Below, piece by piece: positions 1,440-6,130 of a DNA stretch of 41,513 bases; within the stretch, counting starts at the first letter, position 1; each line of letters opens with the position of its first letter. The notes beneath the pieces are model-generated. The model was not told the origin of the DNA, made no database searches, and saw only the letters and a program-made list of their open reading frames with translations. Origin of the DNA: Actinomycetes bacterium. Its GTDB lineage: Bacteria > Actinomycetota > CALGFH01. Made by a program: the position numbers and the translations under genes. The stretch covers positions 1 through 41,513 of the forward strand of contig DASYUT010000112.1 of NCBI GenBank assembly GCA_036000965.1, given 5' to 3'.

Positions 1440-2381
1440 TGGGTCCTCTCAGCAGTCCTCGATAGGGTCCTGCCGCACCTGGGCGAGCGGCATCGACGCC
1501 TGCTCTGCGGGGCGGTCGCCCGCGCGCTGGGCCACGGCGGCGTGACCTGGGTCGCCGAGCTTGCCGGGATGTCGATCCCCACCATCATCCGTGGCGCCAG
1601 CGAGCTCGACGACCCACCCGACCCCTACGGACGCACCCGCCGCCAGGGTGGCGGACCCAAGCGGCTGGTCGAACGCCAGCCGGGCCTGTTGGAGGCGCTG
1701 GACCGGCTGGTCGAGCCCGACACCCGCGGCGACCCCACCTCGCCGCTGCGTGGACCTGCAAGCCCACCCGCAAGCTCGCCGACGCGTTGTGCGCGCAAGG
1801 CTTCCAGGTCAGCGACGACACCGTCGGGCGGCTGCTGCGCGAGCAGGGCTACCGGTTGCAGCGCACCCGCAAGACCTTGGAGGGCGCGGGAGCACCCCGA
1901 CCGGGACGCGCAGTTCCGCTACGTGAACGAGCAGGCCCGCGAGCACCTGGCCGCCGGCCAGCCGGTCGTCAGCGTCGACACCAAGAAAAAGGAACTGGTC
2001 GGGCTGTTCCACAACCCCGGCCGGGAGTGGCAGCCGTCGGGGGAGCCGGTCGGGGTCAACGTGCACGACTTCCCCAGTGACGCGCTCGGCAAGGCGATCC
2101 CCTACCGGGTCTACGACCTGGGCGCCAACGCCGGCTGGGTCAGCGTCGGGGTCGACCACGACACCGCCGCGTTCGCCGTGGCCACGCCTGGCCGCTGGTG
2201 GGAGCAGGCCGGCCGGGTGCTGTACCCCCAGGCGGACCGGCTGCTGGTCTGCGCCGACGCTGGTGGCAGCAACGGCGACCGGGTGCGGCTGTGGAAGACC
2301 GAGCTGGCAAGGTTTGCGGCCGAGACCGGCCTTGCGGTGACGGTGTGCCACGTCCCACCCGGCACCTCGAAATGGAACAAG
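1440..2381 (+). pseudogene. ISAzo13-family transposase, 5' part, decayed
   Basis: From about 1467 the translation (LPHLGERHRRLLCGAVARAL, then RGASELDDPPDPYGR) matches what I recall of the N-terminus of ISAzo13-family transposases. No start codon is visible because a TGA at 1437-1439 precedes the frame. One base is missing near 1749, which pushes the stretch containing WTCKPTRKLADALCAQGF and LLREQGYRLQRTRKTLEGA into the next frame. A compensating indel near 1890 restores the original frame for HPDRDAQFRYVNEQ, VSVDTKKKELVGLFHNPG, GWVSVGVDHDTAAFAVATPG and CHVPPGTSKWNK. The frame is cut at 2381 by the IS110-type element and resumes at 3940. The gene is certainly inactive. The two small indels alone could be sequence errors, but the insertion could not. 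Confidence 0.88.
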
Positions 2382-2395
2382 TCTGCATGACCTGT

Positions 2396-2557
2396 GGCCA
2401 CCCGGGAGTGATGAAATGCTTCGTGTGGCTCGTCGGGCGTGGTCGCCGTCTCGATACTGGAGCACCTGAGCCCGCAACAAGTCTGGTGCAGGGTCCGCGG
2501 GACCTGGGATTGTCGCTGCGAGCACGAACCCCAGATTCGGTTTCCTAACCAGGTCCC
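2396..2557 (+). ncRNA. candidate IS110 bridge RNA in the 5' leader
   Basis: Established background: IS110 elements express a structured bridge RNA from a non-coding end, with one loop pairing to the target and another to the donor ends. Seen here, in order: an imperfect stem (2396-2403 with 2436-2444); a 5-bp stem GCACC/GGTGC (2462-2466 with 2485-2489) whose loop holds AACAAG (2476-2481), identical to the six bases left of the insertion (2376-2381); and a perfect 9-bp stem GGGACCTGG/CCAGGTCCC (2499-2507 with 2549-2557) whose 41-base loop holds ACCCCAGAT (2528-2536), identical to the nine bases spanning the right junction (3933-3941). CTCGAT at 2450-2455 is the reverse complement of ATCGAG, the first six bases to the right of the insertion. 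Exact RNA ends and guide assignments are inferred. Confidence 0.6.
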
Positions 2558-2597
2558 TCCCCGGCGGGTCGTTGTTGGCCCGACGAAGGGAGGAGCC

Positions 2598-3842
2598 GTG
2601 GAACAAGTCCACGATCGGGTCGTAGGGTTGGACGTACATCGCGACGTCGTCGCGGCGTGCGTACGGGTGGCGGGGCCGCGGGGAGGGGTGGCCACCGAGA
2701 AGGAACGGTTCCAGACCACAACGGCGGCGCTGGAGAGGCTCGGCGGCTGGTTGGCCGACCGTCGGGTTTCGCTGGTCGCGATGGAGGCGACGGGCGTGTA
2801 CTGGAAGCCGGTCTACTACGCGCTGGAGTCGCGCTTCGAGGTGTGGCTGTGCAACGCCCATCACGTCAAGAACGTGCCTGGCCGCAAGACCGACATGTCC
2901 GACGCGGAGTGGCTGGCCGATGTGGCTGCCCATGGCATGATCCGGCCCAGCTTCGTGCCACCGCCACCGATCCGTGAGCTGCGGGAGTTGACCCGCTACC
3001 GCAAGACGCAGACTGACGCCCGGGCTGCGGAGATCCAGCGTCTGGAGAAGGTGCTCCAAGATGCCGGGGTGAAACTGACCTCGGTGGCCTCCAAGGTGCT
3101 GACGCAGTCCGGCCGGCTGATGGTCGAGGCGCTCATCGACGGCCAGCGAGATCCGGCGGCGTTAGCCAACCTGGCCAAAGGCAAGCTGCGGCCGAAGATC
3201 CCCGAACTGACCGAGGCGCTCGCCGGGCACTTCGGCGCGCACCACGCTGTCGCCGCCCGCCGCATCCTCGACCACGTCGACTTCCTCGACGCCACCATCG
3301 CGGCGCTGACCGAACAGATCGACGCGCGCACCGAGCCCTTCCAGGCGGCCAAACAGTTGCTGTCGTCCGTTCCGGGATTCGACCGGCTGGTCATCGACAC
3401 CGTGATCGCCGAAACAGGCGCTGACATGAGCAGGTTCCCCAGTCCTGGGCACCTGGCGAAGTGGGCCGGCGTCTGCCCCGGCAATCACGAGTCGGCGGGC
3501 AAGCGTCGCCGAGTTGGGATCACCCCAGGCAACAGCTGGCTGCGGCGCGCCCTTATCGAAGCGGCCCGGGCCGCAGCCAGGACGCGGGGGAGCTACTTCG
3601 GCGCACAGTACCGCCAGATCGCCAAGCGGCGCGGCCCCAACAAGGCCGCTGTCGCCGTAGCGCACAGCCTGAGCGATCTCATCTGGCACCAGCTCACCAC
3701 GGGCGAGTGCTTCCATGACCTCGGCGACGACTACTTCCAGCGCCGCCGCGACCCAGAACGCGAGACCCGCCGCCTCGTTGCCCAACTCCAACAGCTCGGC
3801 TTCCACGTCGCCCTCACACCTTCCCGGGATCCCGCCGCCTAG
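2598..3842 (+). CDS. IS110-family transposase (DEDD recombinase)
   Basis: This encodes the 414-residue recombinase that moves the element, normally guided by the bridge RNA. The GTG start at 2598 is preferred over an upstream GTG at 2439 because GGGAGGAG lies just before it and the leader is needed for the RNA. The N-terminal RuvC-like DEDD domain shows VVGLDVHRDVVAACV, VAMEATGVYWKPVYYALES, and KTDMSDAEWLADVAAHG. A helical middle follows. The C-terminal Tnp (IS116/IS110/IS902) domain shows LLSSVPGFDRL, FPSPGHLAKWAGVCPGNHES, and GITPGNSWLRRALIEAA. Length is normal for the family and no frameshift is seen, so it is probably functional. Confidence 0.95.
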   Translation: MEQVHDRVVGLDVHRDVVAACVRVAGPRGGVATEKERFQTTTAALERLGGWLADRRVSLVAMEATGVYWKPVYYALESRFEVWLCNAHHVKNVPGRKTDMSDAEWLADVAAHGMIRPSFVPPPPIRELRELTRYRKTQTDARAAEIQRLEKVLQDAGVKLTSVASKVLTQSGRLMVEALIDGQRDPAALANLAKGKLRPKIPELTEALAGHFGAHHAVAARRILDHVDFLDATIAALTEQIDARTEPFQAAKQLLSSVPGFDRLVIDTVIAETGADMSRFPSPGHLAKWAGVCPGNHESAGKRRRVGITPGNSWLRRALIEAARAAARTRGSYFGAQYRQIAKRRGPNKAAVAVAHSLSDLIWHQLTTGECFHDLGDDYFQRRRDPERETRRLVAQLQQLGFHVALTPSRDPAA

Positions 3843-3939
3843 CCCGCTCAAGACCCACGACACATCAGGCTGCGCCGAGGGCCGCGGCCGGTCCGCAGGC
3901 GTGCCTGAGCAGGTCCGCTCGGCTTGCATTTCACCCCAG

Positions 3940-4200
3940 ATCGAGCACCGCCTGTTCAGCCACATCTCGACCAACTGGCGTGGCCGGCCGCTGGAGAGCG
4001 ACGAGGCGGCCGTGGAACTGATGGGGGCGACCACCACCCGCACCGGCCTGCGGGTCCACGCCGAGCTGGACCAGGGCACCTACCCCAAGGGGATCAAGGT
4101 CAGCGACAAAGACTTCGCCGCGGTCCCGATCCGCCGCCACGAATTCCACAGCGAATGGAACTACAGCATCGCTCCCAACCCGCTTCCCCGGCCTCCATGA
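3940..4200 (+). pseudogene. ISAzo13-family transposase, 3' part
   Basis: This continues, in the same frame, the gene interrupted at 2381. It starts IEHRLFSHISTNWRGRPLES, contains MGATTTRTGLRVHAELDQGT and YPKGIKVSD, and ends near EWNYSI before a TGA at 4198-4200. These are the familiar C-terminal motifs of ISAzo13-family transposases. CCCTAAGG at 4225-4232 also occurs near 1356-1363 on the other side of the element and may belong to degraded terminal inverted repeats. That last point is weak. Confidence 0.88.
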
Positions 4201-4280: not shown

Positions 4281-5954
4281 TCAGCTTGCCTGCTCGGCGA
4301 GGTACTCGTGGACGAGCTGGACGGCGATGGCGCCCTCCCCGACGGCTGATGCGACCCGCTTGATGGACCGGTGGCGCACGTCACCGGCGGCGAACACGCC
4401 GGGCAGGCTGGTCTCCAGGAACAGCGGTGGGCGCACAAGCGGCCAGCCTGTGGGCAGCCCGCCGGCACCGAGGAGGTCACGACCGGTCAGCAGGTAGCCT
4501 CGCTGGTCACACCCAACGGTTTCGCGCAGCCAGTGCGTGCGCGGCTCCGCGCCGATCAGCACGAACAGGCCGGCCGCCGCGACGGTCTGGGTGACGTCGT
4601 TGCGGCCGTCGCGGAGCGTCAGGCGCTCCAGGCGCCCGCTGCCCTGCCCGTCGACCACCTCGGTACGCAGCCGGACGGAGATGTTGGGGGTCGCCTGGAG
4701 CTTGGTGACCAGGTAGTCGGACATCGTGGTGCCGAGGGCCTCGCCGCGGACCAGCACGGCGACCGACGCGGCGTGCTCGGCGAGATGGATGGCGGCCTGC
4801 CCGGCCGAGTTGCCGGCGCCGACCACGAACACCGCTTGGCCTTCCATGGCGTGGGCTTCACTGCCGGCGGCGCCGTAGAACACCCCGGCGCCCGCCAGCG
4901 CCTCCAGGCTGGGCACCCCCAGCCGCCGCCAGGCGACCCCCGGCGCGAGGATCACCGCCCGGGCGGCCACCCCCCGGCCATCGGCGACCCGGAGCAGCCG
5001 CTCGGAGCCACGGGTGGTCAGGCAGGTCGCTGCCTGGGCGAACACGAAGTTGGTCCCAAACAGCCACGCCTGCTCGAAGGTCCGGAACGCCAGGTCATCA
5101 CCGCTGATCCCGTGCGGGAACCCGGGATAGTTGCGGATCAAGGAGCTGGTCCCGGCCTGGCCACCGAACACCTCCGGTTCCAACACCAGCGTGCGCAGCC
5201 CCTCGGAGGCTGAGGAGACCGCCGCGGCCAGCCCGGCGGGGCCGGCACCGACGATGGCGAGGTCGTAGGTTGTCGGCTCGGGACGGGTGCTGGCGCCGAG
5301 GAACTCGGTGAGCTCGGCGTGGGAGGGGTCGACCAGCACCCGGCCGGTGCGGAAGATCACCACCGGGAGCCGGCTGCCGTCCTGGCCGGCCTGCTGCAGC
5401 AGCTGGCGTCCGGCCTGCGAGTCGTGGGGATAGAACCGGTAGGGCATGGCCACGCGGGTCAGGATGTCGCGCAGCTGGTGCGAACCTGGCTCCCACTGCC
5501 GGCCGACGATGCGGATGGCCACAAACGACGGCTCCTGGGTCTTGCTCCAGTCGGCCAGGAACTCGCTCACCGGCGGGTACAGCCACCGCTCCGCAGGCTG
5601 CCAGGGGGTGAACAGGTGGTAGTCGATCTGGCCCAGCGTCATCGCCCGCACCGCCGGGTGGGCCGCGGTGTAGTCCCCCCGGCTCACCAGCAGGACCCGT
5701 TTGGCCGCCGGGTGCACCTCATGGGCCGCCACCAGCAACTCCACCCCGCTCATCTGGGTCATCTGCTGGCCGGCGAGCACCAAGGCGACCTGCTGCGACC
5801 GCGCCGCCAGCTGCCCCAGGGTGGTCAGCGCCGCCGCCGGCGAACCCTCGGCGAGGAGCTGGTAGTCGACCCCGAAGCGGCGGCCAAGGTCGCCCGCCAG
5901 CGCCTCCAGCACCGCGCGGTCCTCATCCACCAGCAACAGCACCGGCGTTCCCAT
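4281..5954 (-). CDS. receiver-like / thioredoxin-fold / FAD-NAD(P) oxidoreductase fusion
   Basis: The 557-residue protein has three parts. Residues 1-125 resemble a response-regulator receiver (LLLVDEDRAVLEAL), but the phospho-acceptor Asp is Gly62 (LVLAGQQM) and the conserved Lys before PW is Thr. Residues about 140-222 look like a thioredoxin fold without CxxC. Residues about 228-557 are a thioredoxin-reductase-type flavoprotein with the FAD site GAGPAG (236-241), a second nucleotide site VVGAGNSAGQAA, and the C-terminal signature GVFAAGDVRHRSIKRVASAVGEGA. The redox CATC motif of true TrxB is absent (VFYGAAGSEA). It is probably a soluble NAD(P)H-dependent reductase whose partner is unknown. 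The start at 5954 is taken at MGTPVLLLV; upstream in-frame starts exist. It is an intact single gene amid decayed neighbours. Confidence 0.85.
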   Translation of the reverse strand: MGTPVLLLVDEDRAVLEALAGDLGRRFGVDYQLLAEGSPAAALTTLGQLAARSQQVALVLAGQQMTQMSGVELLVAAHEVHPAAKRVLLVSRGDYTAAHPAVRAMTLGQIDYHLFTPWQPAERWLYPPVSEFLADWSKTQEPSFVAIRIVGRQWEPGSHQLRDILTRVAMPYRFYPHDSQAGRQLLQQAGQDGSRLPVVIFRTGRVLVDPSHAELTEFLGASTRPEPTTYDLAIVGAGPAGLAAAVSSASEGLRTLVLEPEVFGGQAGTSSLIRNYPGFPHGISGDDLAFRTFEQAWLFGTNFVFAQAATCLTTRGSERLLRVADGRGVAARAVILAPGVAWRRLGVPSLEALAGAGVFYGAAGSEAHAMEGQAVFVVGAGNSAGQAAIHLAEHAASVAVLVRGEALGTTMSDYLVTKLQATPNISVRLRTEVVDGQGSGRLERLTLRDGRNDVTQTVAAAGLFVLIGAEPRTHWLRETVGCDQRGYLLTGRDLLGAGGLPTGWPLVRPPLFLETSLPGVFAAGDVRHRSIKRVASAVGEGAIAVQLVHEYLAEQAS

Positions 5955-6130
5955 CCTCCACCCCCTGGCGTGCCGGCCCGATCGGCGGCCCCACGTCCAC
6001 CCGATGGCCACCAACAGTGTCCGCCAAGCCAGTCATCGGATACAGGACGTCTGGGAACTACATCTAGGCAGCAGCCTCGCGCGCTCGGTGGGCCGAGCGG
6101 CCGTGGACCCCTCAGCGAGGTCGTCGATGG

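Follow-up and report, generated by a model that had tools for sequence, protein, structure and literature searches.

The window analysed here, a 41,513-nucleotide stretch of contig DASYUT010000112.1 from an Actinomycetes bacterium (assembly GCA_036000965.1), carries between positions 2382 and 3937 an insertion element of the IS110 family, which sits inside an ISAzo13 transposase gene and is flanked by AACA-AG on its left and ATCGAG on its right (Table 1). Its 414-amino-acid DEDD/Tnp_20 recombinase scored above cut-off for both PF01548 and PF02371, and could be aligned with the solved recombinases of IS621 (8wt6) and ISCro4 (9t56) so that the DEDD motifs and the catalytic-serine region lie in register; in sequence it is very distant from that of IS621. 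A decayed recombinase fragment about 95% identical to it lies on another contig of the same genome (C153, 1148-1791), and a BLAST search found no leader match beside that fragment. Just 3' of the element, on the minus strand (4281-6014), is a long open reading frame that by eye appears to combine a response-regulator domain with a thioredoxin-reductase-like flavoprotein.

Table 1. Features of the IS110-family element and its insertion site (window positions; LE and RE, left and right element ends).
Feature	Position	Strand	Basis
ISAzo13-type (PF07592) transposase gene, left part	1542-2381	+	Pfam match, profile positions 2-229 of 308
Left host flank AACA, read by target loop	2376-2379	+	equals leader 2476-2479; covaries across 69 elements
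Core AG, left junction (CT on opposite strand)	2380-2381		empty site GGAACAAGATCGAG with AG once
Bridge-RNA leader (predicted), 216 bases, left tip to recombinase start	2382-2597	+	conserved in homologues, covarying structure
Left element tip TCTGCATG	2382-2389	+	first two bases TC are the partner of the handshake guide
5' stem-loop	2388-2400	+	consensus helix 1, compensatory changes
Inverted repeat, left copy TGAAATGC	2412-2419	+	inverted repeat of 3926-3933, covarying
Target-binding hairpin (predicted)	2442-2489	+	outer helix 2442-2448/2484-2489 is consensus helix 2, 99.3% of cells paired
Left target guide TCTCGAT	2449-2455	+	6/7 complementary to right host flank from 3940; family test
Right target guide and core, AACAAG	2476-2481	+	covariation with left flank
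Target-loop handshake guide TC	2482-2483	+	equals LE+1,+2, covarying
Donor-binding hairpin (predicted)	2499-2557	+	outer stem 2499-2507/2549-2557; inner helix 2511-2516/2522-2526
Short candidate left donor guide GATT, opposite AGTC of left tip	2508-2511	+	family consensus GANTG only
Right donor guide and core, ACCCCAG	2528-2534	+	equals RE tip 3933-3939
Donor-loop handshake position AT	2535-2536	+	in window, identical to bases 1-2 of right host flank
IS110-family recombinase, 414 aa, GTG start, intact	2598-3842	+	PF01548 E=2e-25, PF02371 E=2.9e-22
Inverted repeat, right copy GCATTTCA	3926-3933	+	inverted repeat of 2412-2419
Right element tip ACCCC, partner of right donor guide	3933-3937	+	own-RE guide match
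Core AG, right junction	3938-3939		sequence; right-end guide match
ISAzo13 transposase gene, right part (IEHRLFSHI...)	3940-4200	+	Pfam profile positions 229-308 of 308

The two pieces of the interrupted gene adjoin exactly at Pfam profile position 229: the left part ends with GTSKWNK at the junction, and the restored protein reads GTSKWNK/IEHRLFSHI. An uninterrupted ISAzo13 gene carrying GGAACAAGATCGAGCACC is present in another genome of the same phylum (L127). Because that gene is uninterrupted and holds AG once, the filled site corresponds exactly to target plus element plus one extra AG core; the empty site and the abutting profile halves thus both place the insertion at a short core without target duplication, as is typical of the IS110 family. 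With the target written as GAACA-AG-ATCGAG, the junction of the circular form, running from right end to left end, is GCATTTCACCCC-AG-TCTGCATGACC. The left half of the interrupted gene also appears to be frameshifted (1740-1900, with the continuation in another frame near 1787), so that the gene may have been inactive in any case. An element 74% identical to this one, in another actinobacterial assembly (L009, 1131-1260), occupies the same IEHRLF codons of an ISAzo13 gene and has the same right tip. The exact 12-base target AACAAGATCGAG also occurs unoccupied at three further places in the genome of the window (L149, L150 and L151), within ordinary-looking genes.

The earlier note on this stretch had pointed to short matches between the loops of the leader and the sequences on either side of the junctions. 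The loop sequence AACAAG is indeed identical to the left target flank followed by AG, and the identity runs further than had been noted, as AACAAGTC is shared between leader positions 2476-2483 and positions 2376-2383, which take in flank, core and the element's first two bases. CTCGAT (2450-2455) is, as described, complementary to ATCGAG (3940-3945) in the right flank. The junction sequence occurs a third time where the recombinase gene begins (GGAACAAGTC); this copy was set aside as a coincidence of codons, since relatives of the element do without it.

Since matches of this length could arise by chance, as the earlier note itself had cautioned, 91 homologous elements were gathered by contig scan and genome searches, and the leaders of 86 were aligned. 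The flanks were then compared in register in the 69 elements that have AG at the aligned left-junction column, with the left tip positioned from the alignment and hence independently of its loop match. This analysis revealed that the 3' strand of the first loop equals the left flank at positions -5 to -1 in 34, 49, 54, 62 and 60 of the 69 elements, respectively (17-24 when shuffled), and equals LE+1 and LE+2 in 63/69 and 61/69 (expected 49.5 and 22). Beyond the flank, core and first two element positions almost all of the match signal disappears. An exact match to four nucleotides of the left flank was seen in 42 of the 69 elements, against a shuffled mean of 1.7 and a maximum of 8 in 5000 shuffles; because the elements are related, the number of independent events is below 69 and these shuffle figures are not strict probabilities. 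The 42 exact matches comprise 30 different 4-base guides, which shows repeated retargeting and not a single inherited site.

On the other, 5' strand of this loop the corresponding signal is real but less strong. When this strand was compared with the complement of the right flank, 159 matches were counted in 59 elements, against 112 in shuffled sets (0/5000 reaching the observed number). At least 5 of 7 positions match in nine elements, where one would be expected, and the window has 6/7; in many elements the match is weak (1-3 of 7), and in the window the guide has AC, not CT, at the core position. Covariation of leaders with differing targets, the absence of which the earlier note had named as grounds for refutation, is very strong at 2476-2481 and weaker but significant at 2450-2455. 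Four plasmid elements (L130-L133), fetched once the rule had been fixed and held out until then, behave similarly: three of the four have the left match, with the repeats GCAGGTCAGCG, CGAAGAGAT and TGAATAGTTG linking left flank and loop. Taken at the level of sequence, homologues at other targets carry other, fitting guides, and the matches are not chance.

The same logic extends to the second loop, which the earlier note had matched to the right end of the element across the junction. In the window, ACCCCAGAT at 2528-2536 recurs at 3933-3941. Across the family, the right donor hexamer, consisting of four bases plus AG on the 3' strand of the second loop, is found at the element's own right end in 60/63 elements, as compared with 7% for the hexamers of other elements; 27 different sequences are represented among these right-end matches, and in the held-out plasmid elements the right-end guide recurs in 4/4, one of them with a changed core. 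When the register was shifted, positions reached significance only where the alignment had fixed it. The part of the match that does not generalise is its final AT, which lies in the host flank: the equivalent donor-loop handshake match was seen in 20/59 elements family-wide, against an expectation of 14-17, and is weak or not significant.

For the left end of the element, LE positions were scanned in two dimensions against every leader column; no convincing diagonal emerged and hence no long left donor guide, in line with what had been noted before. The left end is not wholly without a guide, as it is partly matched by TC at 2482-2483, immediately after the core in the target loop. For the short GATT (GANTG in the family), no covariation with AGTC was seen across the family.

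Near its ends, the element also has a sub-terminal inverted repeat, which measures 8 bp in the window and 4-10 bp in relatives. It is placed asymmetrically, about 5 bp from the right core and 31-37 bp from the left core (in the window, 5 bases inside the right tip and 31 bases inside the left tip), and it covaries: the base at RE-10 is complementary to that at leader position 2417 in 58/59 elements (expected 20). What reads this repeat could be a protein or the RNA itself. One way in which the RNA might do so is as a fifth guide outside both loops, in which the leader copy would pair with the right-end strand opposite to that read by the right donor guide and so offset the missing left donor guide, an idea that we regard as rather improbable.

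The guides are embedded in a conserved structure. A consensus computed with RNAalifold from 25 leaders consists of the 5' stem-loop, the helix closing the target loop and the inner helix of the donor loop. In it, 96% of cells pair and two-sided changes occur at 9/16 pairs; none of 500 shuffles equalled this and no slide came close. The perfect 9-bp stem that had been described as closing the last loop is present (GGGACCTGG at 2499-2507 with CCAGGTCCC at 2549-2557), and the outer stem of the donor hairpin is maintained by covariation, with a stability score above 100/100 swaps and a register that varies between subgroups. Swapping of longest duplexes gave no signal for the outer stem of the target loop (own 14.2, swapped 14.4), because this short helix is nearly invariant; its support comes from the consensus structure. 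In the single-sequence minimum-free-energy fold of the window's leader, the 5' end pairs with the 3' strand of the 9-bp stem, unlike in the comparative structure. The three hairpins proposed earlier thus hold as three structured units in a comparative model, and not as the minimum-free-energy fold. An Rfam search of the window at gathering thresholds returned two tRNAs only and no bridge-RNA family match, and inspection by eye of the junction between right and left ends led us to claim no promoter there.

These data bear on two readings in which the loops would not act as guides. As the left match crosses the recombined junction, taking in target, core and two element bases just as a copied junction would, the matches might be duplications or leftovers of insertion, such as a copied stretch of target. 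Yet the matching segments lie at one fixed place in a conserved fold and end at the loop borders, there are matches to the right end as well, and those to the right flank take the form of the inverse complement; the bases that span the junction are, moreover, accounted for by the handshake pairing known from IS621. We give this reading almost no credence. The same applies to the proposal that the leader merely serves to regulate or attenuate expression of the recombinase gene, with the target chosen by the protein. The leader does lie directly upstream of the gene, and in ISPpu9 small RNAs had been considered modulators of recombinase expression, but an attenuator gives no reason to expect that the leader should match host DNA beyond the element. 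Such matches are the strongest signal observed, and this reading too is highly improbable.

How the guides are oriented relative to the gene and the element ends was then compared with known systems. In the group to which the window belongs, AG lies on the gene strand; the right flank is complemented by the first guide, and the left flank plus core is repeated in the second. According to the IS621 report (PMC11208160), the gene strand of IS621 carries CT, its first guide repeats the left target with the core, and its second complements the core plus right target. The IS621-type polarity, in which CT lies on the gene strand and the match to the bottom strand comes first, is thus absent from the window. 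A control copy of IS621 agrees with the published order: its junctions are ATCAGGC-CT/TGTATT on the left and AACAGTAT-CT/ACGTG on the right, and in its leader ATCGGGCCT precedes GCGTAG, with ACAGTAT occupying the 5' side of the donor loop. The CT strand in the window's group runs antisense to the recombinase gene, and on that strand the guides follow exactly the IS621 order. This resolves the odd order of the two target segments, for which the earlier note had offered a target read on the CT strand as a way out: per strand the order is that of IS621, and what is reversed is the polarity relative to the gene and the ends.

The handshake bases lead to the same orientation. In IS621 these bases, as handshake guides are defined in PMC11208158, pair with the left donor after strand exchange. 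Here they match the left tip, and the left end would therefore be the left donor, which in IS621 is the right end; with CT lying on the strand antisense to the gene, the two ends swap donor roles. As judged from sequence, the flip is backed by two independent features, namely guide order with core strand, and the handshake match to the left end. It could instead be supposed that this is a bridge RNA of ordinary IS621-type polarity, with the gene strand as top strand and the observed order a coincidence of short matches, given that in IS621, the best-studied member, the gene strand carries CT and the bottom-strand match leads, and that ISEc21 is reported to be alike. In the relatives of the window, however, the gene-strand core is AG, the matches to flank plus core and to the right end fall on the 3' strands of the loops in dozens of elements, and the handshake bases match the left end, not the right; for the window's group the in-register family test contradicts ordinary polarity, which we consider very unlikely.

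Taken together, the sequence comparison, which provides the guide-target and guide-donor matches, the handshake match, the structure, the junctions and the polarity, makes it very probable (roughly 0.92) that the leader encodes a bridge RNA, of flipped polarity, by which the IS110 recombinase can link the circular element to a single selected DNA sequence. On the CT strand, the 5' strand of the first loop would match the left target half, CTCGAT, and its 3' strand would pair with the core and the right target half (the AACA-AG side); the two bases that follow the right target guide and core would pair, after strand exchange, with the element's first two bases as a handshake; and the 3' strand of the second loop would pair with the core and the right element tip. 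The element would thereby be steered into the conserved KWN-K/IEH codons of the ISAzo13 gene, for a net change of the element plus one core. By analogy with IS621, the RNA would be transcribed from the circle junction, processed and bound in a ribonucleoprotein; the serine-mediated strand exchange, the recombination and which strand swaps first are likewise taken from that analogy.

The window's element shares features with each of the better-known types. Like IS621 (Durrant et al. 2024, PMC11208160; Hiraizumi et al. 2024, PMC11208158), it has an RNA upstream of a DEDD/Tnp_20 recombinase, a target loop that precedes the donor loop, a 5' guide identical and a 3' guide complementary to the same target strand, on which the core is CT, a handshake guide after the target-loop core, and insertion without duplication. 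It differs from IS621 in that its left end is the putative left donor and its right end the right donor, in that its strong donor guide is on the 3' strand (the right donor guide) and not on the 5' strand, in its 414-amino-acid recombinase and in its longer sub-terminal inverted repeat. With the IS1111 seekRNAs (ISEc11, ISPa11 and ISKpn4; Siddiquee et al. 2024, PMC11187229, from which their guide order was taken) it shares a gene-strand order in which the top-strand complement comes before the bottom-strand match, an order reported for IS1111 members, whereas in ISEc21, the sole IS110 member tested there, the complement comes last. Sub-terminal inverted repeats occur in both, of 7-17 bp in IS1111 and of 8 bp in the window (4-10 bp in its relatives), where the copies are asymmetrically placed. 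The RNA, however, lies downstream in IS1111 and upstream in IS110 (PMC11187229), as it does in the window, and the recombinase has 414 amino acids, not 330-350, so that the published description sets the element apart from IS1111. ISEc21 (PMC11187229) likewise has an upstream RNA and hits conserved codons of another transposase gene (one of the IS3 family, where the window has ISAzo13), but its reported order has the bottom-strand match first and its recombinase has 358 amino acids; the inverted repeat of the window is also longer than the 2-3 bp reported for IS110. The subgroup that contains IS110 itself has transposases of 395-455 amino acids (PMC11187229). The window's group thus has the guide order of IS1111 together with an RNA placed upstream, as in IS110, and recombinases as long as those of the subgroup around IS110.

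Bridge RNAs have only recently been described as programmable guides for recombination, and what is known of their mechanism in detail comes from IS621 and a small number of relatives. The seekRNA study concluded that guide order separates IS1111 from IS110 (PMC11187229); finding the IS1111 order together with the IS110 RNA position in one group indicates that order and RNA position are separable, and that polarity differs within upstream-RNA elements. The group is large, with recombinases of about 400 amino acids, and spans several bacterial phyla; the literature examined gives no experimental description of it, and the flipped polarity may already be partly drawn for ISAar29 and ISHne5 in the extended data of PMC11208160. 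The ready assignment of guides, target, donor and handshake makes reprogramming tests direct.

In a tree, IS621 and ISEc21 both sit on very long branches, and we therefore make no claim about ancestry or about where the polarity flipped. From an automatic repeat search, polarity could not be called safely in far IS110 lineages (L134-L147). One of these, on contig C222 of the window's own genome (L139), has the 12-base direct repeat CAGGTGAGCACT, its copies 98 bases apart, upstream of a distant IS110 recombinase of 416 amino acids; this spacing is close to that between flank and guide in the window's group, which possibly points to the same guide logic in another lineage.
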